DNA from: Salegentibacter lacus
GTDB lineage: Bacteria; Bacteroidota; Bacteroidia; Flavobacteriales; Flavobacteriaceae
Assembly (NCBI RefSeq): GCF_020164555.1
Contig: NZ_JAIQZB010000026.1
Coordinates: forward strand, 1 to 38,969
Direction: 5' to 3'
DNA: 38,969 nt
Positions 28,142 to 38,969 of the stretch are shown here, piece by piece. The notes beneath the pieces are model-generated. The model worked only from the letters and a program-made list of their open reading frames with translations. It made no database searches and was not told the origin of the DNA. Every line of letters starts with the position of its first letter. The stretch's first letter is position 1. A program made the translations under genes and the position numbers.

Positions 28142-28839
28142 TGCTGAAATGTGTAATTATAGATGATGAGCCCTTAGCGGTAGATGTAATTAAAAACTAT
28201 ATCTCCCAAATTAAAGGCCTGGAAATAATGGCAAGTTTTAATAGCGCTTTAGACAGCCTGGAATTTCTGCAGGAAAATGAGGTAGACCTTATGTTTTTAG
28301 ACATAAACATGCCTGTTCTAGACGGTTACAGTTTCCTAAAAAGTTTAAGCAATAAGCCCCAGGTAATTATTACCACGGCGCACGAAGAATACGCCGTTAA
28401 AGGCTATGAACTTGAAATCCTGGATTATCTTGTAAAACCCATCCCCTTTCCCCGGTTTCTAAAAGCAGTTAATAAAGCTATAAAAAATTGCGAAGAAAAT
28501 AAAGGCGAAAACGATGACTGGAAAGGCAAACATCTTTTTTTAAAAATCAACAAAAAAAAGATGAAAAAGGTTTACTTAAATGATATTCTGTTAGTGGAAA
28601 GTCTAAAAGATTATATCAAGGTAATTACGCCTAACAAGAATTATATTATTCATCAAACCTTAAGCAGTTTCACCGAAAGTTTGCCCTCCAATAGATTTAT
28701 AAGGATACATAGATCTTATACCGTTTCTCTCGATAAAATTGAAGCCCTAGAAGGCAACAGCCTGGAAATTAACGGTAAAAGATATGTTATTGGCCGTAGT
28801 TATTTATCACAAGTAAAAGATATTATCCTAGAAGACTAG
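28138..28839 (+). CDS. LytTR-family response regulator
   Basis: This 233-residue DNA-binding regulator has a receiver domain (about 4-118) with the acidic pocket at Asp9, Asp10 and Glu11 and phosphoacceptor Asp55 in MFLDINMPVLDG. A LytTR DNA-binding domain covers about 137-233, with FLKINKKKMKKVYLNDILLVES and RFIRIHRSYTVSLDKI. It starts inside the kinase stop, so it is the cognate partner. Two ATG codons in a row (MM) allow either start. Its TAG lies within a CTAG that also gives the stop of the converging AraC gene. It probably activates the divergent glycan operon when phosphorylated. Confidence 0.94.
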   Translation: MMLKCVIIDDEPLAVDVIKNYISQIKGLEIMASFNSALDSLEFLQENEVDLMFLDINMPVLDGYSFLKSLSNKPQVIITTAHEEYAVKGYELEILDYLVKPIPFPRFLKAVNKAIKNCEENKGENDDWKGKHLFLKINKKKMKKVYLNDILLVESLKDYIKVITPNKNYIIHQTLSSFTESLPSNRFIRIHRSYTVSLDKIEALEGNSLEINGKRYVIGRSYLSQVKDIILED

Positions 28840-29858
28840 TCGTCTTGCATTTTTCGTGTTTTCAGGAAATACTTAGGATTAACACCATATTTCTCTTTAA
28901 AGATCTTTGAGAAATAACTACGGTTATTCAAACCTATTGAAGTAACAATTTCAGAAATATTCTTTTCGGTGGTCATTAGCATTTCTTTGGCGGCCTCCAG
29001 CTTTTTATGCTGCATATATTTATTCACGGTAAGATCGTAAACATACTTAAAGCCTTCCTGAAGTTTATTCACGTTAGTACCGGCTTCTTTTGCCAAAGCT
29101 TCTACCGTTAAGTTACTTCCTAAATCTCCCTGAATGCGTTTTACTACATAATCTACCTTTTCAATATCAGACTGTCTAAGTATCTGCGGAAGTTTATCGC
29201 CGTCCTCATCATCTTCATATTGGGAAATTTGAATTACAAGCATTTGAAAAGTTTTAGCTTCCAGATATAACGAACGTAAAAACCCGGAAAATTCCTTAGT
29301 ATTAATCTCGTTCATAATATCGGCTGCTTTGATGCTATAATTTCCCTGGTAAAAAAACTGCCTCTCTGCCACCGCATCTTGAAATAACTCTTTTAAGGTA
29401 GGTTCAAGGTCCTGAAAATCGTAGTTACGCCTATGAGCAAAAATCGACCTAATAATTTCTAAACTGGAAACGTGAGTAGCTTCATTGGCTTTAAAATAAA
29501 GTACGTGGCCATTATACCCACTACTGGATACAATTATATTTTGGTAAGCTTTTATTTCATTTACTTTCTCAGAATCCTGAAAAGAATGTCCGGTAGTCCC
29601 GGCTGAGCAAAAAATAAATTTTAGCGGATGTACGGTATTAAGTGCGAAATGAATTTCTACATCCTCATAAAACTTGCAGTTGTAAGTGATAAATCCCATG
29701 CCAGAATCAAAGCTGATTCCCCTAATATACCCTTCCCCAATATGTTCCGGCAGCTCTATAGTATGCTCTCCACTTCCGTTTTGAATCGGGGCATCTAGAC
29801 TTTCAGAAATATCTTGAATAATTTCCTCTACCGGTAAAGTTTTTACATCTATCCTCAT
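28836..29858 (-). CDS. AraC-family transcriptional regulator
   Basis: This 340-residue protein has a C-terminal AraC/XylS DNA-binding domain of about 100 residues. It shows LGSNLTVEALAKEAGTNVNKLQEGFK (first helix-turn-helix), then NISEIVTSIGLNNRSYFSKIFKEKYGVNPKYF (second). The N-terminal 220 residues are not a clear cupin and resemble the effector region of Bacteroidota stand-alone AraC regulators whose ligands are unknown. It reads away from the arsenosugar-type genes across a 619-base gap and converges on the response regulator with a 4-base overlap. It could regulate the locus to its right or be independent; the sequence does not decide. Confidence 0.9.
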   Translation of the reverse strand: MRIDVKTLPVEEIIQDISESLDAPIQNGSGEHTIELPEHIGEGYIRGISFDSGMGFITYNCKFYEDVEIHFALNTVHPLKFIFCSAGTTGHSFQDSEKVNEIKAYQNIIVSSSGYNGHVLYFKANEATHVSSLEIIRSIFAHRRNYDFQDLEPTLKELFQDAVAERQFFYQGNYSIKAADIMNEINTKEFSGFLRSLYLEAKTFQMLVIQISQYEDDEDGDKLPQILRQSDIEKVDYVVKRIQGDLGSNLTVEALAKEAGTNVNKLQEGFKYVYDLTVNKYMQHKKLEAAKEMLMTTEKNISEIVTSIGLNNRSYFSKIFKEKYGVNPKYFLKTRKMQDD

Positions 29859-30477: not shown

Positions 30478-30813
30478 ATGGCTAAGACCTATTACAATCC
30501 CGATGATCTAAGAAAATTTGGCAAAATAACCGAGTGGAGCGAAGAATTAGGAAATAAATTTTTTGATTACTACGGAAAAGTTTTCGAAGAAGGCGCACTT
30601 TCTGCCCGGGAAAAATCGCTTATAGCGCTTGCCGTATCCCACGTTGTTAAATGCCCCTATTGCATTGATGCTTATACTAAAGACGGTTTGCAAAGAGGAA
30701 TTACCAAAGAAGAAATGATGGAAGCCGTTCACGCCGGTGCCGCTATTGAAAGTGGAGCAACTCTTGTTCACGGGGTACAAATGATGAATAAATATGATAA
30801 ATTGAGTATGTAA
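30478..30813 (+). CDS. Arsenosugar biosynthesis-associated peroxidase-like protein (AhpD/CMD fold)
   Basis: This 111-residue cytoplasmic protein is of the carboxymuconolactone decarboxylase/AhpD-like type. The active-site region reads LIALAVSHVVKCPYCIDAYT, with the redox pair Cys59 and Cys62 and His55 near it. The family regularly accompanies ArsS in arsenosugar loci and has selenocysteine in some organisms; here both positions are ordinary Cys codons. It probably handles a peroxide, thiol or arsenic redox step, but its reaction is not established. It is the first sizeable gene of the plus-strand series, 67 bases before arsS. The family call is firm because of length, motif and neighbour. Confidence 0.92.
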   Translation: MAKTYYNPDDLRKFGKITEWSEELGNKFFDYYGKVFEEGALSAREKSLIALAVSHVVKCPYCIDAYTKDGLQRGITKEEMMEAVHAGAAIESGATLVHGVQMMNKYDKLSM

Positions 30814-30880
30814 GGTTTCATCTAACTATCTTAACCCTACAAATCATTTTCCCTGAAACAGCACAAAAAGTAATTTTTGC

Positions 30881-31939
30881 ATGGCTTTATTAAAATCTTT
30901 ATCGGCTAGAAAAAACGATCTTTCAAAACCCGAAAACCAACTTGCCTTTTTAAGCAACGGAATTTTTAGAGAGGGAGAACTTCCTCTTTTTAAAGATAAA
31001 ATTGCCGAAACCGGTAATTATCCGTTAAAACCTAAAACACTGGAAATCCTTCAGCTTAATTTAGGATATATGTGCAATCAGGTTTGCTCTCACTGCCACG
31101 TAGACGCCGGGCCAGATCGTAAAGAGATTATGACCAAAGAGACCATGCAACAATGCCTGGAAGTGATTAAAACTACAAAAGCCCACACCTTAGACCTCAC
31201 TGGTGGCGCACCAGAAATGAATCCCAATTTTAGATGGTTTGTAGAAGAAGCATCAAAAGCAGGAATCAAAGATTTTATTGTTCGCTCTAACCTCACCATT
31301 ATTCTGGCTAATAAAAAGTATCACGACCTTCCGGAATTTTTCAAAAAATACAACGTACATATCATTTCCTCCCTTCCGTTTTACAAGAGGGAAAAAACCG
31401 ATAAACAACGTGGCAGCGGAGTTTTTGATAAATCTATAAAAGCTTTGCAAATGCTAAATAAAGTAGGGTACGCGCAGCCAGGAACGAATTTAAAACTGGA
31501 TTTAGCCTATAATCCTGCCGGCGCATTTCTTCCCACCAATCAGGAAGCTATGGAGCACGACTTTAAAACAGCATTAAAAGAAGATTTTGACATAGATTTT
31601 GATCATCTTTTCGCAATTACCAATTTACCAATTAGTCGGTTTCTCGAGTATTTAATCGCTTCAGAAAATTATGAAGATTATATGTACGAACTGGTAAATG
31701 CCTACAATCCCGCTGCGGTTAAAAACGTGATGTGTACCAATACTATTTCGATAAGTTGGGACGGCTGGCTTTATGATTGTGATTTTAACCAGATGCTGGA
31801 TTTAAAAGTAGCCTCGACGGTAAAGCATATTAGCGATTATAACGAAGACCTTTTAAACAATCGTAACATTCTTATTTCCCAACACTGCTATGGCTGCACC
31901 GCAGGGGCCGGAAGTAGTTGCCAGGGCTCTGTCGCTTAA
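30881..31939 (+). CDS. arsS: Radical SAM enzyme ArsS of arsenosugar biosynthesis
   Basis: This 352-residue radical SAM protein has its [4Fe-4S] motif CNQVCSHC (Cys65, Cys69, Cys72) followed by HVDAGPDRK. The Cys-rich C-terminal domain has MCTNTISISWDGWLYDCDFNQ and a final CYGCTAGAGSSC (Cys336, Cys339, Cys347), probably for auxiliary cluster or arsenic binding. ArsS in cyanobacteria joins dimethylated arsenic to the 5'-deoxyadenosyl group of SAM, giving a dimethylarsinoyl-deoxyadenosine, the committed intermediate of arsenosugars. Some homologues are selenoproteins; this one uses Cys throughout. The peroxidase-like gene before it and the CofC-like glycosyltransferase 24 bases after it match the usual set. 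No ArsM gene is next to it. Confidence 0.93.
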   Translation: MALLKSLSARKNDLSKPENQLAFLSNGIFREGELPLFKDKIAETGNYPLKPKTLEILQLNLGYMCNQVCSHCHVDAGPDRKEIMTKETMQQCLEVIKTTKAHTLDLTGGAPEMNPNFRWFVEEASKAGIKDFIVRSNLTIILANKKYHDLPEFFKKYNVHIISSLPFYKREKTDKQRGSGVFDKSIKALQMLNKVGYAQPGTNLKLDLAYNPAGAFLPTNQEAMEHDFKTALKEDFDIDFDHLFAITNLPISRFLEYLIASENYEDYMYELVNAYNPAAVKNVMCTNTISISWDGWLYDCDFNQMLDLKVASTVKHISDYNEDLLNNRNILISQHCYGCTAGAGSSCQGSVA

Positions 31940-31963
31940 TTTTTTAACTAAGAATTTTCAGTT

Positions 31964-32602
31964 TTGAAACCTACTGATACTTTATTAATGATTTTTACCA
32001 AAAATCCTGAATTAGGGAAGGTAAAAACCCGTTTGGCAAAATCTATCGGAGATAAAGCCGCGCTTAATATTTATAAGTTCCTGCTTTCTCATACGGTTTC
32101 GGTCACTAAAAACCTTAAGGTAGAAAAAAGAGTGTATTATTCTGATAAGATTCCGGAAAACGACCTTTGGCCTTCTGAAGCATTCAGTAAAAAACTACAG
32201 TTTGGCGGAAACTTAGGTGAAAAGATGAAAAATGCATTTTCCGAAGCTTTCCAAAGCGATTATAAGCGGGTAATTATTATTGGTAGTGATTTGCTGGATT
32301 TGTCACAACAAGATCTGGAAAATGCCTTTTTAGAGTTAGAAAAGAATGATGTAGTAATAGGCCCGGCAGAAGATGGCGGTTATTATTTATTAGGAATGAA
32401 ATCCTTAAATTCGGAAGTATTTAAAAATAAAGCCTGGAGCACAAGTTCTGTGCTATCGCACACTCTAAAAGATTTAGAAGGCAAAAAAATAAAAATCCTG
32501 GAAACTCGAAACGATATAGATGAAATTCAGGATATTGAAGAAAACAGCATTTTAAAAAAATTCATAGAATCAAGAACCCTGGGGCAATCCCACGAGAGGT
32601 GA
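31964..32602 (+). CDS. CofC-like (DUF2064/TIGR04282-type) arsenosugar glycosyltransferase
   Basis: This 212-residue soluble GT-A-fold protein has the nucleotide-sugar-like opening LLMIFTKNPELGKVKTRLA, the central VIIIGSDLLDLS and a VIGPAEDGGYYLLGM loop. These mark the DUF2064 group named for its presence beside ArsS. It probably transfers or activates the ribosyl or glyceryl part of an arsenosugar, but this is not proved. I use the TTG start at 31964, which keeps the residues ahead of the beta-strand; an ATG at 31988 would begin inside it. The last ten residues (RTLGQSHER) run into repeat-like DNA and may be an acquired tail. Confidence 0.88.
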   Translation: MKPTDTLLMIFTKNPELGKVKTRLAKSIGDKAALNIYKFLLSHTVSVTKNLKVEKRVYYSDKIPENDLWPSEAFSKKLQFGGNLGEKMKNAFSEAFQSDYKRVIIIGSDLLDLSQQDLENAFLELEKNDVVIGPAEDGGYYLLGMKSLNSEVFKNKAWSTSSVLSHTLKDLEGKKIKILETRNDIDEIQDIEENSILKKFIESRTLGQSHER

Positions 32603-32661
32603 ACGGGAAAACTATTCTATAATTTCGAGGCAAGCCCACCTGAATGATTCGGACAGGCCTC
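32581..32661. repeat. Possible REP-like remnant between the glycosyltransferase and phosphorylase genes
   Basis: GGGGCAATCCCAC (32581-32593) and GAGGCAAGCCCAC (32627-32639) match at 11 of 13 bases, and GCCTC (32657-32661) can pair with GAGGC (32627-32631). The first copy overlaps the end of the glycosyltransferase gene. This resembles decayed REP-type elements of Flavobacteriia; whether it is repeated elsewhere cannot be told from this window. Confidence 0.4.
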
Positions 32662-32694
32662 AGACAAAATAAACCCTCAAAGTGGAATAAAATT

Positions 32695-33507
32695 ATGATA
32701 AAAAAATTAAACGAAACTACAGATTACCTTATTTCCAAAGGTTTCGATACACCTGAAATAGGAATTATTCTGGGCACCGGATTAGGCAATCTGGTAGATG
32801 ACATAAAGATTGAAGCTGAAGTTAGTTACAATCATATCCCTCATTTTCCCACGGCAACGGTAGAATTTCATAAGGGGAAACTCATTTTTGGAACTTTGGA
32901 AGAAAAAAAAGTGATGGTCATGCAGGGACGTTTTCATTTTTACGAAGGTTACAGCCTTAGTGAAGTGACTTATCCAGTTCGGGTTATGGAAAAACTGGGC
33001 GTAAAAAAATTACTGGTAAGCAATGCTTCGGGATCCATCAACCTCGATTATAAAAAAGGAGAATTAATGCTTATCGACGATCATATTAATCTGTTGGGAG
33101 ACTCCCCGCTCGCATTCGCTGGTGTCGAAAAATTAGGCGAACGCTTTGTAGATATGAGCCGGCCCTACGATACGGAAATCAATGAAATCCTCCAGGAGTC
33201 AGCCAAAAAAAATAATATTATCTTACATAAAGGTGTCTACGCTTCAGTACTGGGACCTCAACTGGAAACCCGTGCAGAATACAGAATGTTAAAGATTTTT
33301 GGTGCCGATGCGGTGGGAATGAGCACTGTACCGGAGGTGATTGTAGCCAATCAGTTAGGGCTCCCGGTTTCGGCCATATCTGTGATTACAGATGAAGGTG
33401 ACCCCGATAATCTGAAACCTGTAGATATCAGTGAAATTATCGCGATGGCCGCAAAAGCAGAACCAAATATGATTAAGCTTTTCAAGGAAGTTGTAAAGTC
33501 TATTTAA
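32695..33507 (+). CDS. Purine nucleoside phosphorylase (trimeric PNP-I type)
   Basis: This 270-residue enzyme splits purine nucleosides with phosphate to free base and ribose-1-phosphate. I start at ATG 32695 (MIKKLNETTDYL); an ATG at 32644 would add 17 residues encoded by repeat-like DNA. Family marks are GIILGTGLGNL (23-33), VMQGRFHFYEGY (75-86), NASGSIN (110-116), YASVLGPQLETRAEYR (182-197, Glu191 a purine-contact residue) and GADAVGMSTVPE (203-214). The base-selecting position, Asn243 in human PNP, appears to be Asp233 here (VITDEG), which in human PNP favours 6-aminopurines. In this operon it may remove adenine from the ArsS product. It could alternatively be ordinary purine salvage carried along. 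Confidence 0.93.
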   Translation: MIKKLNETTDYLISKGFDTPEIGIILGTGLGNLVDDIKIEAEVSYNHIPHFPTATVEFHKGKLIFGTLEEKKVMVMQGRFHFYEGYSLSEVTYPVRVMEKLGVKKLLVSNASGSINLDYKKGELMLIDDHINLLGDSPLAFAGVEKLGERFVDMSRPYDTEINEILQESAKKNNIILHKGVYASVLGPQLETRAEYRMLKIFGADAVGMSTVPEVIVANQLGLPVSAISVITDEGDPDNLKPVDISEIIAMAAKAEPNMIKLFKEVVKSI

Positions 33508-33513
33508 GCAGAT

Positions 33514-34800
33514 ATGGAACACATCACTATCATAGGTAATGGAATTGCTGGAATTACCTGTGCGCGGCATATCAGGAAGAATTCCGACGCAAAAATTACT
33601 GTGATTTCTGCCGAAAGCGAGTATTTCTTTTCCCGCACTGCCCTAATGTATGTGTATATGGGCCATATGAAATGGAACCATTTAAAACCTTACGAAGACT
33701 GGTTTTGGGAAAAAAACCGCATTAAACTAAAAAAAGCCTGGGTTGATAAAATAGATTTTAAAGAAAAAACACTTCATTTCTCTTCCGAAGAAACTATGGA
33801 TTACGATAAACTGGTATTGGCAACAGGTTCGGTTTATAATAAATTCGGTTGGGAAGGCCAGGATTTAAAAGGCGTACAGGGACTGGTTTCTAAACAAGAT
33901 TTGGAACTGCTGGAAGAAAACACCCAAAACTGTAAAAGAGCCGTAATTATTGGCGGTGGACTAATAGGTGTGGAACTCGCCGAAATGCTTAAAACCCGAA
34001 ATATCGATGTCACTTTTCTAATTCGTGAAGAAGCTTTCTGGCACAATATGTTACCGCTGCAGGATGCCAAAATGATTTCGGAACATATCAAATCTCACGG
34101 CGTAGACCTTCGGCACGAGACAGAACTCGATAAAATTATTGGCGATGAAAATAGGAGGGTAAAATCTGTTATCACAAATTCCGGAGAAAAAATCGAATGC
34201 CAGCTGGTGGGGCTTTGCACCGGCGTTAGACCTAATATAGACTTTCTAAAAAATTCTGAATTAGAAACCGATAAAGGAATTTTAGTAGACGAATTTCTGC
34301 AAACCAACATAGAAGATGTTTACGCGATTGGCGATTGCGCACAACTGAAGCAACCTCCGGCACATCGAAGACCTATTGAAGCAGTTTGGTATGCAGGCAG
34401 GATGATGGGCGAAACCCTTGCCCAAACCTTAACCGGAAATGCGATGAAATACAAACCGGGCAACTGGTTTAATTCGGCTAAATTCTTTGATATTGAATAC
34501 CAGACTTACGGGCAGGTTTCAGCAAAACCAGGTGAGAATGAAATGCATTTTCACTGGCAGCACCAAGACAATTCAAAAGCCATCACCATCGCTTTTGAAC
34601 CAAATTCCAATAAGTTCCTAGGAATAAACACTTTAGGAATTAGGATGCGCCACCCGGTTTTTGATCATTGGCTTAATGAAGACCGAAAAATAGATCACGT
34701 GCTTGCCAATCTCAAACAAGCCAATTTTGACCCAGAGTTTTACACTCACTACGAAAAGGAGATTTTTAAAAGTTTTAAAGAGAATTTACAGAAGTTTTGA
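33514..34800 (+). CDS. FAD/NAD(P)-dependent pyridine nucleotide-disulfide-type oxidoreductase
   Basis: This 428-residue flavoprotein has two dinucleotide folds: an FAD fold at the N-terminus (IIGNGIAGITCARH, 6-19) and an NAD(P) fold (AVIIGGGLIGVELAEML, 143-159). A second FAD-contact motif reads DVYAIGDCAQL (268-278). The layout matches rubredoxin- or ferredoxin-reductase-like and NirB-like reductases without a redox-active CxxC pair. It begins 6 bases after the phosphorylase stop and precedes the membrane iron-sulfur protein, so the pair probably forms an electron-transfer unit, perhaps supplying reducing power to ArsS or handling arsenic redox. The partner and substrate are inferred from position only. 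Confidence 0.88.
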   Translation: MEHITIIGNGIAGITCARHIRKNSDAKITVISAESEYFFSRTALMYVYMGHMKWNHLKPYEDWFWEKNRIKLKKAWVDKIDFKEKTLHFSSEETMDYDKLVLATGSVYNKFGWEGQDLKGVQGLVSKQDLELLEENTQNCKRAVIIGGGLIGVELAEMLKTRNIDVTFLIREEAFWHNMLPLQDAKMISEHIKSHGVDLRHETELDKIIGDENRRVKSVITNSGEKIECQLVGLCTGVRPNIDFLKNSELETDKGILVDEFLQTNIEDVYAIGDCAQLKQPPAHRRPIEAVWYAGRMMGETLAQTLTGNAMKYKPGNWFNSAKFFDIEYQTYGQVSAKPGENEMHFHWQHQDNSKAITIAFEPNSNKFLGINTLGIRMRHPVFDHWLNEDRKIDHVLANLKQANFDPEFYTHYEKEIFKSFKENLQKF

Positions 34801-34843
34801 TTGAATATGCAGTTTTAAAAATTTAGAATTACTTGAAAAATAT

Positions 34844-34912
34844 ACCTACAAGGTCGCAAAGACCTTGCAGGAAAGCAAGGAGCTCCTGCAAGGTTTTCAA
34901 AACCTTGTAGGT
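34844..34912. repeat. Nested palindromic REP-like repeat
   Basis: The outer arms ACCTACAAGGT (34844-34854) and ACCTTGTAGGT (34902-34912) are exact inverted repeats of 11 bases. The inner arms ACCTTGCAGG (34862-34871) and CCTGCAAGGT (34885-34894) are exact over 10 bases. The four units are variants of one another. The element can fold as two side-by-side or one long hairpin between two genes of the operon, as in REP/BIME elements, and could modulate readthrough. Confidence 0.85.
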
Positions 34913-34928
34913 GTGAAAATCAAAATAT

Positions 34929-36512
34929 ATGAGCAAACTAGAACACAATATGTCCCTCACGGGAGAGGCACCGGCAAAACTTTCTACCACGCAAAAACTT
35001 GCCAGCGGTATCGGCTTACTTGGTTTATTTATTCTGGTACTTGCCCTGGCGAATGTAAATTTCCCGAATAAAACCTTGTTTTTAAGTCTGTCTTTAGGCT
35101 TAATCGCGATGGGAACAGTGATTTTTGCAAACGATCTCTATTTAGGGAAACACGAAGGAATAAAAAATGATGGGGTTTGGTTTAAATCGCTTACCGGCCG
35201 CGGATTTTGGGCCTGGATTCTGGGAATTACCCTAACGCTTTTTTATATAGTCTTATATTGGTATCCGCAATATTTAGGCTTGAATGCCGATGGCGCCAAT
35301 ACAGGAATCGTCTCTTTATTCGATCCTTTAAGCCACCTTATTAGCGGAAATCCAGCCAGCCAGTGGTTTGTTTACGGAACGCTTTACACTTTGGCCATTC
35401 TTATTTTTGGCTATAAATTTATCCTGAAATATCGGAATAATCGTTACGAGATAATTCGTACATTTTCGGTTATGTTCTTTCAATTGGGTTTCGCATTTCT
35501 AATCCCGGAAATTTTAATTCGGCTTAACCAACCATATTACAATCCTGCCAATATCTGGCCGCTTAACTACGATCTGTTTACCGATTATAAGATAAACGAA
35601 TTCCTTTCTGCAGGGAATATTGGGGTAATTATGCTGGCTTTTGGATTGATTTCGATTTTTGTGATCACCCCCATATTAACTTATAAATACGGAAAACGCT
35701 GGTATTGCAGCTGGGTTTGTGGCTGCGGCGGACTCGCAGAAACCGCCGGAGATCCTTACCGACATCTTTCGAATAAATCACAATATGCCTGGAAGATTGA
35801 GCGCTGGGTAATTCACAGCGTCTTGGTCTTTGTTACGGTAATGACGATCGCGGTTTTATATTCCTTTTTAGGCGATAGTGCTAATGATTTCTGGCTAACC
35901 AAAGATCTGTTTCTCTGGGGAACTGCCGGTTTTCTCACTTTGCTTTTCGCCGTAATTATGATTTTTAAACGCAAAGAATTGGCTAAAGATGCTAAATATG
36001 GTGCCATTGGTTATTTGGTGATAATTTTGACTATCATTGGTATTAATTATTTAAGCGGAAACGGGAATATTTTCTTCTTTGCCGGTTACCAACTGCGGGA
36101 ATGGTATGGCTTTTTGATTGGTGCTGTATTTTCCGGGGTAATTGGAGTTGGATTTTACCCGATTTTTGGTAGCAGGGTTTGGTGCCGATACGGTTGCCCT
36201 ATGGCGGCAGTTTTAGGAATGCAGCAACGACTTTTTTCAAAGTTTAGAATTACTACTAACGGCGGACAATGTATCTCTTGCGGAAATTGCTCTACGTATT
36301 GCGAAATGGGTATCGATGTTCGCGCCTATGCCCAAAGAGGTGAAAACATTGTTCGTTCCAGTTGTGTTGGCTGCGGAATCTGCTCGGCTGTCTGTCCTCG
36401 TGGCGTACTAAAACTTGAAAATGATAATTTAGGCGGAAGAATAAATTCTGAAGAAGTTCTTTTAGGAAATGATGTTGATTTAATGGATTTGGTAAACCAG
36501 AAATCGAAGTAA
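34929..36512 (+). CDS. Membrane-bound 4Fe-4S electron-transfer protein (NapH/CcoG-like)
   Basis: This 527-residue polytopic membrane protein has about ten hydrophobic segments. Cytoplasmic-side cysteine motifs are WYCSWVCGCGG (Cys260, Cys264, Cys266) and WCRYGCP (Cys419, Cys423), as in NapH- and NosR-like proteins. It ends in a two-cluster ferredoxin domain: CISCGNCSTYC (Cys448, 451, 454, 458) and CVGCGICSAVC (Cys479, 482, 485, 489). Such proteins pass electrons between the quinone pool and soluble partners. Placed after the FAD reductase, it probably couples that enzyme to the membrane. It is separated from it by the palindromic repeat and ends in a TAATG overlap with the next gene. Its role in arsenic chemistry is inferred. 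Confidence 0.9.
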   Translation: MSKLEHNMSLTGEAPAKLSTTQKLASGIGLLGLFILVLALANVNFPNKTLFLSLSLGLIAMGTVIFANDLYLGKHEGIKNDGVWFKSLTGRGFWAWILGITLTLFYIVLYWYPQYLGLNADGANTGIVSLFDPLSHLISGNPASQWFVYGTLYTLAILIFGYKFILKYRNNRYEIIRTFSVMFFQLGFAFLIPEILIRLNQPYYNPANIWPLNYDLFTDYKINEFLSAGNIGVIMLAFGLISIFVITPILTYKYGKRWYCSWVCGCGGLAETAGDPYRHLSNKSQYAWKIERWVIHSVLVFVTVMTIAVLYSFLGDSANDFWLTKDLFLWGTAGFLTLLFAVIMIFKRKELAKDAKYGAIGYLVIILTIIGINYLSGNGNIFFFAGYQLREWYGFLIGAVFSGVIGVGFYPIFGSRVWCRYGCPMAAVLGMQQRLFSKFRITTNGGQCISCGNCSTYCEMGIDVRAYAQRGENIVRSSCVGCGICSAVCPRGVLKLENDNLGGRINSEEVLLGNDVDLMDLVNQKSK

Positions 36513-37285
36513 TGCCGCAAAAAAATCACGAAACTCAGGGAAAAACTACGAAAGATGAGTCAGAAATTTACTCCCTAAATGAGTCTAAGCTTGACGGAAT
36601 TAAGGTAAAAGTTATTATTCCGGCTTATAACGAAGAAGAATCCATTGCCAAAGTGATTGCTGAAATTCCTAAGATTGTTCAGGAAATAATAGTGGTAAGC
36701 AACAATTCTACCGATGCTACTGAAGAAAACGCTCTAAATGCCGGTGCAACCGTGCTTCAGGAAAATCAAAAAGGTTATGGTTATGCCTGTTTAAAGGGTA
36801 TAGACTATATCTCAAAACAATCAACAACACCCGACATTATTGTCTTTCTCGATGGCGATTACAGCGATTTTCCTTCTGAATTAACCAAAATTATTGCGCC
36901 AATTATTGAAGAAAACAAAGACCTGGTGATTGGTACCCGGGTAAAAAAATGGCGTGAAAAAGGCTCAATGACTTTTCCGCAGATATTTGGGAATTGGCTG
37001 GCAACTTCTCTTATGAAATTATTCTTTAACGCCCGCTTTACCGATCTCGGTCCGTTTAGGGCGATTAAATACAATAAGTTGCTGGAACTTGAAATGCAGG
37101 ACAAAACCTACGGCTGGACGATAGAAATGCAATTAAAAGTCTTAAAAAAAGGGTTTTCTTACACCGAGGTTCCCGTACATTATAAGAACAGGATTGGCAC
37201 TTCAAAAGTTTCGGGCACGGTGAAAGGTGCTATCTTTGCAGGAATCAAAATCCTTGGATGGATTTTTAAATACAGTTTTAAGTAA
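36512..37285 (+). CDS. Family 2 glycosyltransferase, DPM1/polyprenyl-phosphate type
   Basis: This 257-residue GT-A enzyme has VKVIIPAYNEEESI (32-45), NNSTDAT (64-70) and the metal-binding DGD (114-116) in VFLDGDYSDFP. The C-terminal section YGWTIEMQLKVLKKGF with VPVHYKNRIGTSKVSGT matches dolichyl/undecaprenyl-phosphate sugar transferases. It has a short hydrophobic C-terminus (ILGWIFKYSFK) rather than long membrane segments, so it probably works at the inner face of the membrane, attaching a sugar to a polyprenyl carrier or lipid. Both ends overlap neighbours by TAATG, so it is translationally coupled to the iron-sulfur protein and to the next glycosyltransferase. The acceptor is unknown. Confidence 0.9.
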   Translation: MPQKNHETQGKTTKDESEIYSLNESKLDGIKVKVIIPAYNEEESIAKVIAEIPKIVQEIIVVSNNSTDATEENALNAGATVLQENQKGYGYACLKGIDYISKQSTTPDIIVFLDGDYSDFPSELTKIIAPIIEENKDLVIGTRVKKWREKGSMTFPQIFGNWLATSLMKLFFNARFTDLGPFRAIKYNKLLELEMQDKTYGWTIEMQLKVLKKGFSYTEVPVHYKNRIGTSKVSGTVKGAIFAGIKILGWIFKYSFK

Positions 37286-38751
37286 TGGATTTCGCCATTA
37301 TCATCATATATACGCTTGCCCTGCTGCTCATTTTCTTTTATAGTATTTCGCAGCTTCAGTTGTTATTGAATTATCTCAAGGCAAAAAAAGAGGTGGATAT
37401 CTCGGAAAAATTTAATCTAGATAATATATCTGAAATTCCTTTTGTAACCATCCAACTTCCACTTTACAACGAACTTTATGTGGTGGAACGTCTGCTGAAA
37501 AACATTGCAAAAATTGATTATCCCGGGGAAAAACTGGAAATACAAGTTCTGGATGATTCTACCGATGAATCAGTTGAAAAAATTGAAATATTAGTAGCTC
37601 AACTCCAAAAAAACGGACTTGATATAAAGCACATTACCCGCAAAGATCGTAGCGGCTTTAAGGCAGGTGCTTTAAAAGAAGGTTTAAAAATCGCTAAAGG
37701 GGAGTTAATAGCGATTTTTGATTCCGATTTTTTACCCAAGCAAGACTGGCTACTGCAAACTGTTCCCTACTTCAAGGATCCTGAAATAGGCGTGGTGCAA
37801 ACCCGCTGGGGACATATAAACCGAAATTATTCCCTGCTTACCAAAATTCAGGCATTCGCTTTGGACTTTCATTTTATCCTGGAACAGACCGGCCGTAATT
37901 TTGGACGGCATTTTATCAACTTTAATGGTACAGCCGGAATATGGAGAAAGGAATGCATTTTGGATTCAGGAAATTGGAGCGGAGACACCTTAACCGAAGA
38001 TCTGGACCTAAGTTACCGAGCGCAACTCAAAAAATGGAAGTTTAAATACCTGGAAGATGTAGAAACCCCGGCCGAATTACCGGTGGCGATAAGTGCAGCC
38101 CGCTCCCAGCAATTTCGATGGAATAAAGGCGCTGCAGAGAATTTCAGAAAGAATTTCAAAAAGCTCGTTAAAGATAAATCGGTTTCTCTTAGCACTAAAT
38201 TTCACGCGTTTTTTCATCTTTTAAATTCCAGTATGTTTTTGGTGATCTTGGTTTTGGCGGTGCTAAGTATTCCTGTGTTGTTTATTAAAAATAATAATCC
38301 ACAGTTTAATTGGTATTTTAACCTGGTGGCTTTCTTTTTGGTAAGCACGGTTATTTTTCTTTTCTGCTATTACGCTGCTTATGCAAAGATTCATGGGAAA
38401 AGCTTTAAAAGTTTCCTGAACTTTATCGGGATGTTTTTTACGTTTTTTTCGGTAGCTATGGGATTTTCGGTTCATAATTCCCTGGCGGTTTTGGAAGGGC
38501 ATTTCGGGAAAAAATCGGCGTTTATAAGAACGCCGAAATTCAATGTGGATTCCCTAAAAGATTCCTGGAAAAATAATATTTATATTCAGCAGAAATTTTC
38601 ATTAAGCATTGGGGTTGAATTCGCTTTGTGGCTGTATTTTGGTTTCGGCCTCTATAGCGCTTTTATGCTGAATGATTTTAGTCTTGCCATTTTTCATCTG
38701 ATGCTTTTTATAGGCTTTGGGTTTGTGGTTTTTAGGTCGGTTAGAATTTAA
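37285..38751 (+). CDS. Cellulose-synthase-like family 2 membrane glycosyltransferase
   Basis: This 488-residue membrane glycosyltransferase begins with one membrane segment (2-20). The GT-A domain has VTIQLPLYNE, VLDDSTDES (Asp90, Asp91), FDSDF (145-149), TEDLDL (237-242, catalytic base region) and the QQFRW motif (275-279) of the CESA/CslA group. Four or more C-terminal membrane segments follow from about 310. Such enzymes extend or transfer beta-linked sugars across or at the membrane. With the DPM-like gene before it, it suggests a glycolipid or exported glycan as the end product of the operon. Its ATG overlaps the preceding stop as TAATG. The sugar donor cannot be read from sequence. Confidence 0.9.
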   Translation: MDFAIIIIYTLALLLIFFYSISQLQLLLNYLKAKKEVDISEKFNLDNISEIPFVTIQLPLYNELYVVERLLKNIAKIDYPGEKLEIQVLDDSTDESVEKIEILVAQLQKNGLDIKHITRKDRSGFKAGALKEGLKIAKGELIAIFDSDFLPKQDWLLQTVPYFKDPEIGVVQTRWGHINRNYSLLTKIQAFALDFHFILEQTGRNFGRHFINFNGTAGIWRKECILDSGNWSGDTLTEDLDLSYRAQLKKWKFKYLEDVETPAELPVAISAARSQQFRWNKGAAENFRKNFKKLVKDKSVSLSTKFHAFFHLLNSSMFLVILVLAVLSIPVLFIKNNNPQFNWYFNLVAFFLVSTVIFLFCYYAAYAKIHGKSFKSFLNFIGMFFTFFSVAMGFSVHNSLAVLEGHFGKKSAFIRTPKFNVDSLKDSWKNNIYIQQKFSLSIGVEFALWLYFGFGLYSAFMLNDFSLAIFHLMLFIGFGFVVFRSVRI

Positions 38752-38969
38752 AAGGCTAAATAGATTAAATTCAAAATTGTTGTCATCGTCATCCTGAACT
38801 CGTTTCAGGATCTAACAAGATTTGAATATCCACATCATAGATCCTGAAATAAATTACCATTGACGTATTTTTCAAGTTGCTGTTTTATAGCTGATTACCA
38901 TGTTCATTTCTTTTGCCATTTTGAATAAGCTTTTTTGTTTATTAAGTAGTATTTTTTCTTGGTAAGCTT
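38752..38969. other. Noncoding right edge
   Basis: No open frame of note lies after the last glycosyltransferase. The stretch holds the palindromic repeat at 38791-38849 and is otherwise AT-rich. No classical terminator with a T-run is visible, so the operon could continue beyond the edge. Confidence 0.5.
38791..38849. repeat. Palindromic ATCCTGAA repeat
   Basis: ATCCTGAA (38791-38798) and TTCAGGAT (38804-38811) form an 8-base stem with a 5-base loop. TTTCAGGATCT (38803-38813) also has a perfect inverted copy, AGATCCTGAAA, at 38839-38849. Such ATCCTGAAnnnnTTCAGGAT elements are widely scattered in intergenic DNA of Bacteroidota, so this is probably a REP-type element. It lies 40 bases after the last gene and could act in mRNA 3'-end protection or termination. 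Confidence 0.75.

Follow-up and report, generated by a model that had tools for sequence, protein, structure and literature searches.

Organization of the ArsS operon

The stretch of DNA analysed here (the window, 38,969 nucleotides of a contig of Salegentibacter lacus) carries at its right end an operon of the arsenosugar type, built around the radical S-adenosylmethionine (SAM) enzyme ArsS, in which the arsenic methyltransferase ArsM is absent. Eight genes lie on the + strand between 30478 and 38751. A first-pass annotation had read them as a single arsenosugar-type operon, and their coordinates, strand and families were confirmed, with the first four genes scoring over the cut-offs of their families. 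The leading gene encodes a TIGR04169 AhpD-like arsenosugar-associated peroxidase-like protein (Prx, 30478..30813; 198.8 bits, cut-off 120). It is followed by ArsS with a C-terminal DUF3641 domain (30881..31939; TIGR04167 439 bits, cut-off 300; DUF3641 E 5.8e-55), by a CofC-like TIGR04282 protein with a predicted nucleotidyltransferase fold (31964..32602; 215.5 bits, cut-off 134) and by a purine nucleoside phosphorylase (PNP, 32644..33507; NF006054 348 bits, cut-off 218; TIGR01700 299.8 bits, cut-off 293.35). The annotated PNP start at 32644 is probably too early and the true start may lie near 32695, as in 12 of 13 congeners the match begins at residue 15-18 of the window protein.

The second half of the operon encodes redox proteins and glycosyltransferases. 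FADox is a FAD/NAD(P)H oxidoreductase (33514..34800; Pyr_redox_2, Pfam E 4.6e-57) that falls short of all 25 cut-offs among the NCBIfam families shown, and FeS is a NapH-like membrane polyferredoxin (4Fe-4S) with several Fer4 domains (34929..36512; TIGR02163 49.8 bits, below the cut-off of 213). The structure model of FeS was too poor to be used (predicted local distance difference test, pLDDT, 51). The spacer between both genes holds an imperfect inverted repeat (34844..34912) with 29-nt arms that are 83% complementary. GT_A is a family 2 glycosyltransferase (GT2) of the polyprenyl-phosphate/AglJ-like kind (36512..37285; Glycos_transf_2; TIGR04182 119 bits, cut-off 325 not reached), and GT_C a membrane GT2 glycosyltransferase of the CelA/PgaC kind (37285..38751; PF13641, PF00535), below the cut-offs for cellulose and poly-N-acetylglucosamine synthases (TIGR03030, 114.6 against 699 bits; TIGR03937, 113.9 against 422 bits). 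Neither the glycosyltransferases nor the redox proteins reached any NCBIfam cut-off among the families shown. The many overlapping stops and starts described in the first-pass annotation reduce to two of the seven junctions, one base each (FeS/GT_A at 36512 and GT_A/GT_C at 37285), and at the remaining five the annotated genes are 6 to 128 bp apart.

The contig, and the window with it, ends at 38969. An MptB/GT87-like gene is next in line in 8 of the 8 congeners that have the glycosyltransferase pair at this locus (GT87 over cut-off; NF038066 34.8-35.6 bits, below the cut-off of 40). This third glycosyltransferase is therefore cut off in the last segment (38752..38969), and not known to be absent. 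On the other side, a divergent gene for an AraC-type protein (28836..29858, - strand; HTH_18 match) is, from its sequence and position, the probable regulator of the operon. A divergent AraC gene stands beside ArsS at the other 13 ArsS loci of the genus, in G100, G266, Christiangramia and Zunongwangia; according to the gene order of their loci, it is not beside ArsS in G007 and G241.

Absence of ArsM in the genome and in the genus

Two models of ArsM were used, NF008823 for the general (canonical) arsenite methyltransferase and NF038099 for the ArsM of arsenosugar operons. The operon-type ArsM gets only about 120 bits from NF008823, under the cut-off of that model, hence the search with NF038099 was added, in which two operon copies from relatives score 567 and 570 bits. 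In the genome of the window the best match to NF008823 reached 46 bits and corresponds to MenG/UbiE (259 bits, cut-off 158), and the best match to NF038099 reached 29.5 bits, with none at 1e-40. As far as these two NCBIfam models can tell, the genome has no recognisable ArsM, and the absence claimed in the first-pass annotation stands at the scale of the genome. We also considered that ArsM was missed through a poor model, which is rejected as the search with NF038099 left the result standing, or that it is hidden in an assembly gap. The window assembly is 99.99% complete in 128 contigs, and the congener G305, assembled as a single contig, has no NF038099 match above 32 bits either, so this second option was also rejected.

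ArsS is present in 14 of 15 genomes of the genus, the exception being a genome that is 61% complete. Three of them (G031, G301 and G310) have a match that passes the NF038099 cut-off, and two other congeners carry a general ArsM (G300 and G302, 368 and 373 bits to NF008823). Nine of the 14 ArsS-bearing species show neither type (G000, G257, G299 and G303-G308). Among congeners, NF008823 was searched directly only in G000, G031 and G257; in the others the general ArsM was excluded through the NF038099 search, in which the two general ArsM proteins found reach about 100 bits and proteins of the MenG type about 30. The absence extends to TIGR04283, whose best match in the window genome is 63.8 bits against a cut-off of 182 and which is over its cut-off in 2 of 15 genomes of the genus.

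A methyltransferase encoded elsewhere in the genome and not recognised as such might supply dimethylarsenic, ArsM having been merely replaced. In this sense, an unlinked general ArsM exists in 16 genomes of the family and in G300 and G302. We consider this explanation quite unlikely for the window, however, where nothing exceeds 46 bits (NF008823) or 30 bits (NF038099) and the best candidate is MenG/UbiE, and the result for the single-contig G305 speaks in the same direction.

Deletion at the PNP-FADox junction

The gene order of relatives accounts for the missing genes. In the congener G310 and in three genomes from outside the genus of the window (G100, G266 and Christiangramia gaetbulicola), PNP is followed by ArsM, DUF547, TIGR04283, a GH113 gene on the opposite strand and then FADox. 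The order runs on to FeS, GT_A and GT_C in the latter three genomes; the contig of G310 ends after FADox. In the window, the PNP stop is 6 bp from the FADox start (33508..33513) in place of the ArsM (NF038099)-DUF547-TIGR04283-GH113 block. The absence of ArsM is a secondary loss by deletion that recurs in relatives and not the original design of the operon. The deletion at this locus also removed TIGR04283, the arsenosugar-synthesis glycosyltransferase of NCBIfam.

The gap between PNP and FADox measures 81-100 bp in G257, G299 and G302-G305, 6-7 bp in the window, G306 and G307, and 1 bp in G308. These differences fit repeated losses with the core of the operon retained, and a later trimming of one junction is also possible. 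In an unrooted rpoB tree of 15 genomes, G310 is placed among the ArsM-less species with moderate support nearby (0.67-0.95), which implies that the block was either lost several times or regained by G310. G310 is the closest to the window for ArsS (97% identity), TIGR04282 (85%) and PNP (89%), but the neighbouring AraC protein is nearer to other congeners (89% to G310 and up to 95% to G304), so that recombination within the operon is possible. Of the three TIGR04283 genes that pass the cut-off in G310, only one belongs to the ArsS operon.

ArsS is retained under strong constraint

Loss of ArsM has not been followed by visible erosion of ArsS. The ratio of nonsynonymous to synonymous substitution rates (dN/dS) of ArsS has a median of 0.030 among the nine ArsM-less species of the genus (25 of 36 pairs computable, median dS 1.4), and of 0.027 in the six pairs with dS below 1. 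For rpoB, the median is 0.027 over the 36 pairs of the same species. Both ArsS and Prx are intact in all nine. The window ArsS keeps 146 of the 147 columns that are invariant in 73 sampled ArsM-bearing relatives; across 32 ArsM-less ArsS proteins of the family, 120 of these columns are at least 97% conserved, and five fall below 90% (28/32). The cysteines at positions 65, 69, 72, 285, 300, 336, 339 and 347, which comprise the CxxxCxxC motif and C-terminal Cys residues, are present in every one of the 105 sequences, of which 32 come from ArsM-less genomes. A search for residues separating the ArsM-bearing from the ArsM-less proteins gave no convincing column.

Such strong constraint on ArsS without ArsM argues against decay. 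It could still be proposed that the operon is a decaying relic after the loss of ArsM and TIGR04283, kept for its phosphorylase or its redox genes. ArsM, DUF547, TIGR04283 and GH113 are gone from the locus and few congeners keep any TIGR04283 over the cut-off; the TIGR04282 protein evolves under looser constraint than ArsS (dN/dS 0.144, 32 pairs), and the phosphorylase may serve purine salvage. We nevertheless regard a relic as very unlikely, because all nine ArsM-less species have intact ArsS and Prx, the constraint on ArsS is like that on RpoB, and the varied junction gaps fit repeated losses in which the core was kept each time.

An import module at ArsM-less arsS loci of the family

We surveyed 299 Flavobacteriaceae genomes evenly drawn from the family of the window. 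ArsS was found in 216 of them, and NF038099 in 168, all of which also have ArsS (168/168). The 216 ArsS genomes thus comprise 168 with NF038099, 16 with only a general ArsM and 32 with neither. Loci were read for 105 of the 216: all 32 ArsM-less genomes, 15 of the 16 with only a general ArsM (G147 was left out) and 58 of the 168 with NF038099. Some of these loci are on short contigs (L147, L151 and L164), and L107 and L108, with no ArsS, were dropped.

At the arsS locus of 20 of the 32 ArsM-less genomes we found genes for SusC, SusD, a 444-aa Na+ symporter of the sodium:solute symporter (SSS) family and a phosphoesterase (L079, L104, L112-L114, L117-L121, L124, L125, L146, L150, L152, L153 and L155-L158). 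The module is placed after ArsS 13 times and before it 7 times. A gene of 275-322 aa in these operons had been considered as a substitute methyltransferase, and the copy tested (L114) is a calcineurin-like phosphoesterase. The symporter family is tight, being present in 40 of the 299 genomes with no match between 1e-168 and the limit of 1e-60, and 39 of these 40 genomes have ArsS. In all 30 symporter genomes for which the ArsS position is known, the two genes are no more than 10 kb apart; of the 9 other ArsS-bearing symporter genomes, 8 have the symporter within 8 kb of ArsM. It occurs in 20 of 32 ArsM-less against 19 of 184 ArsM-bearing ArsS genomes (Fisher p 5.8e-10, n=216). The association persists after dropping 24 genomes taken as less than 90% complete (1.3e-10, 192 genomes) and with about one genome per genus (14/23 against 17/154, 4.2e-7, n=177), this last set being the only one of the three in which relatedness is not ignored. 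The ArsS tree (105 sequences) requires no fewer than 14 changes for the symporter and 16 for ArsM, and 8 independent supported pairs gave on average 5.0 in the expected direction, 0.2 in the opposite one and 2.7 with no difference (median p 0.06). G121 was counted as ArsM-bearing although its general ArsM match (L060) contains an internal stop; this genome carries the symporter.

A different importer was found in G063, also ArsM-less, where the slot between ArsS and TIGR04282 (L148:7191-14727) holds a TonB-dependent receptor (Plug and barrel over cut-off), an ABC importer (substrate-binding protein NF008633, 385 bits; two permeases; ATPase) and another radical SAM protein. The most economical interpretation is that the import of a methylated arsenical can replace ArsM. 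Several operons without NF038099 contain, before GT_A, a membrane protein of 141-151 aa with a CC motif (L111:10281-10703, L129:4997-5449), among them the ArsM-less operons of G046, G065, G098, G268 and G281. It is in none of the 58 NF038099 loci of the family draw and occurs together with ArsM in the metagenome-assembled loci L260 and L279. It looked MerT-like, an assignment that was rejected as no family is over its cut-off (NMN_transporter 20.3 bits, cut-off 27.3).

The same modules could be taken to mean that the ArsS of ArsM-less lineages has a different substrate, that is, another arsenical or an acceptor of the adenosyl radical without arsenic, leading to a different 5'-modified riboside or lipid. 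In 9 of the 14 genus members and in 32 of 216 family genomes, ArsS is maintained under constraint where no ArsM is found, and the presence beside ArsS of the SusC-SusD-symporter module, or of a TonB receptor with an ABC importer, suggests that some imported compound matters. SusC-SusD transporters usually serve ligands larger than dimethylarsinate. On the other hand, the core of ArsM-less ArsS is mostly unchanged, with all the cysteines kept and no separating column; the confinement of NF038099 to ArsS genomes ties the family to methylated arsenic, and 16 genomes without NF038099 hold a general ArsM elsewhere. We consider a change of substrate rather unlikely on balance, at about one chance in four.

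Phosphorylase, TIGR04282 and a possible route

The active site of the phosphorylase is compatible with a role after ArsS. Asp250 and Ile262 occupy the base and 5' positions in the window PNP, where PNP 8swu has Asn and His; these two residues read the 6-oxo group and the 5'-OH. Operon phosphorylases carry Asp (156/156) and Ile, Val or Leu (156/156) at these positions whatever their ArsM state, a change that, as far as residues can indicate, fits a 5'-modified adenosine as substrate. We rejected the signature as a proof specific to arsenosugars, given that the PNPs 4lna and 4m1e carry Asp/Leu. In every one of the 14 genomes of the genus with such a phosphorylase, the operon PNP is the sole match at E <= 1e-10.

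The AlphaFold model of the TIGR04282 protein (pLDDT 89) matches 3cgx, 2i5e (a probable nucleotidyltransferase), 7p97 (a 3-phosphoglycerate guanylyltransferase) and Rv2983, which we take to be a CofC/FbiD-type enzyme. The protein stays under the cut-off of the CofC guanylyltransferase model TIGR03552 (43 against 105 bits). Its nucleotidyltransferase fold is supported by the structure model.

In Synechocystis sp. PCC 6803, SsArsS is stated to act jointly with SsArsM at the start of arsenosugar synthesis (PMC8552651), and radical SAM adenosylation of arsenic is described as well (PMC12159101). From the gene families, a route may be proposed in which a methylated arsenic compound would be taken up from outside and not made by the cell, and ArsS would attach a 5'-deoxyadenosyl group to it. 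The phosphorylase would then cleave the 5'-modified adenosine to adenine and a 5-modified ribose-1-phosphate, which TIGR04282 might activate as a nucleotide sugar. GT_A and GT_C, together with the MptB-like enzyme that should be encoded past the end of the contig, would transfer the sugar to a polyprenyl or lipid acceptor, and FADox and the membrane FeS protein could provide electrons for arsenic reduction or for ArsS. The outside supply is an inference, and so are the reactions that follow ArsS, their order, the acceptor and the role in electron transfer.

Glycosyltransferases as neighbours of ArsS

At E <= 1e-60, GT_C is present in 213 of the 216 ArsS genomes and in 30 of the 83 without ArsS. 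Among the matches listed for which both positions are given (110 genomes), GT_C is within 30 kb of ArsS in 65, with a median of 16 kb, and both genes are on one contig in 83. The tie to ArsS therefore held, the glycosyltransferases not being mostly in loci without arsS. The first-pass annotation had taken them for an extension of the operon, a view that is contradicted by G100, G266 and Christiangramia gaetbulicola, which have ArsM and the glycosyltransferases too. The comparison of gene order over Flavobacteriia that it had suggested shows, for the Flavobacteriaceae, that the operon recurs, with the ArsM loss being secondary and the glycosyltransferases no addition.

Compact operons running from PNP to GT_A, GT_C and the MptB-like gene are found in the genus of the window, in G007 and G241 and in Salinimicrobium xinjiangense; those of G046/G268, G065/G281 and G098 are also compact and have the CC-motif membrane protein in place of FADox-FeS. 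It is possible, at somewhat less than even odds, that the glycosyltransferases form an independent surface-glycan unit merely adjoining the ArsS operon, which would be compatible with outside supply of methylated arsenic to the earlier genes. GT_C exists without ArsS, the unit lies away from ArsS in G144 and G087, and at 19 of the 20 ArsM-less symporter loci the glycosyltransferases are not in the stretch read. The near-universal presence of GT_C in ArsS genomes and its frequent proximity to ArsS speak against this independence, as do the position of GT_A and GT_C after the phosphorylase region in compact operons of several genera and the 1-base overlaps that couple FeS, GT_A and GT_C. The glycosyltransferases are real, long-standing neighbours of ArsS that are not strictly dependent on it, and an arsenolipid as the product is unproven.

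Source of the ArsS substrate

The interesting question is the origin of the ArsS substrate. The reading that we favour, with a probability of roughly 0.45, is a working but reduced arsenosugar-type operon from which the methylation step was deleted and to which methylated arsenic is supplied from outside. The enrichment of the SusC-SusD-symporter module at ArsM-less arsS loci and the importer of G063 support such an outside supply. Several observations weigh against it. The window genome has no such symporter by the search for its family, no import module was seen at the 14 ArsS loci of its genus, and outside supply is extended to it by analogy with modules seen in other genera. The association between symporter and ArsM is not significant once relatedness is removed (the median p of 0.06 given above); 19 genomes carry both, G242 has the symporter without ArsS, and in G087 it is 178 kb from ArsM. 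TIGR04283 is gone from the window genome as well as ArsM. Part of the constraint on ArsS may predate the loss of ArsM, the dS values being high. As for the phosphorylase, the Asp/Leu signature occurs in solved PNPs with no known link to ArsS, and its being the sole such PNP in congeners makes a general role in purine salvage possible.

A broader version of outside supply, which we put forward tentatively and as less likely than not to hold in full, is that many Flavobacteriaceae are arsenic scavengers that gave up ArsM, import an organoarsenical and rebuild it into an arsenic-carrying sugar lipid. The importer would mostly be SusC-SusD with the Na+ symporter at the arsS operon, and once a TonB receptor with an ABC importer, the genus of the window having no dedicated importer at the locus.

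Comparison with known systems

The known pathway starts from dimethylarsenic made by ArsM. With the ArsM-ArsS pathway of Synechocystis sp. PCC 6803 the window shares the ArsS radical SAM enzyme; the genome of the window differs in having no recognisable ArsM or TIGR04283, and in having PNP, a flavoprotein, FeS and lipid-type glycosyltransferases in one operon. A second group is formed by the NF038099 operons of Flavobacteriaceae, such as those of Christiangramia gaetbulicola DSM 23082 (L206), G310 (L101) and G100 (L102), with the same order of AraC, TIGR04169, ArsS, TIGR04282 and PNP and then FADox. L206 and L102 also share FeS, GT_A and GT_C after FADox, and L206 adds a rhodanese gene after ArsS. 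Unlike the window, these operons keep ArsM, DUF547, TIGR04283 and the GH113 gene between PNP and FADox. Salinimicrobium xinjiangense DSM 19287 (L214), G007 and G241 have the same ArsM-less order as the window (Prx, ArsS, TIGR04282, PNP, FADox, FeS, GT_A, GT_C and MptB), but a general ArsM is encoded away from the operon in G007 and G241, and none of the three has AraC beside ArsS.

The HpnH-HpnG pathway to adenosyl-hopane offers a parallel, in which a radical SAM enzyme adds a 5'-deoxyadenosyl group and a nucleoside phosphorylase then removes adenine. The acceptor and the families are different, and the window ArsS is a weak match to HpnH (34.5 bits, far under the cut-off of 225). In the arsinothricin cluster arsQML, a radical SAM enzyme and ArsM form C-As bonds (PMC8552651, PMC12159101), the radical SAM enzyme transferring a 3-amino-3-carboxypropyl group (PMC12159101). 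Neither that enzyme nor ArsM is in the window operon.

The complete pathway had been described as apparently uncharacterised in this phylum. The type of operon is not new, as ArsS is in 216 of 299 Flavobacteriaceae genomes and the core is named by NCBIfam, but no biochemistry of it in the phylum appeared among the literature matches listed. Among these matches there was likewise nothing on Flavobacteriaceae ArsS operons, on ArsS without ArsM or on uptake of organoarsenicals by SusC-SusD, most subscription papers being outside the search. Where ArsS is constrained although ArsM is missing, either methylated arsenic released by other organisms is salvaged by heterotrophic marine bacteria or the ArsS family has another substrate, and either answer alters the reading of arsenosugar genes in genomes and the view of organic arsenic cycling. 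The import module points to an uptake system for an organoarsenical, and no system of this type appeared among the papers listed in the one literature search directed at it. Furthermore, the existence of related species with and without ArsM makes the source of the substrate directly testable.

Other features of the window

The - strand of the window carries a polysaccharide utilisation locus (4170-26945) with SusC, SusD, four GH92 mannosidases, GH20, a fucosidase, GH130 and a sodium:solute symporter, adjoining a LytS/LytTR pair. From these gene families, it looks like a locus that serves mannose-rich glycans. Beside it, three Porph_ging (PF09697) proteins are encoded in tandem on the - strand (124-2495), and two of them match the N-terminal domain of PNGase F-II, one just at the cut-off.

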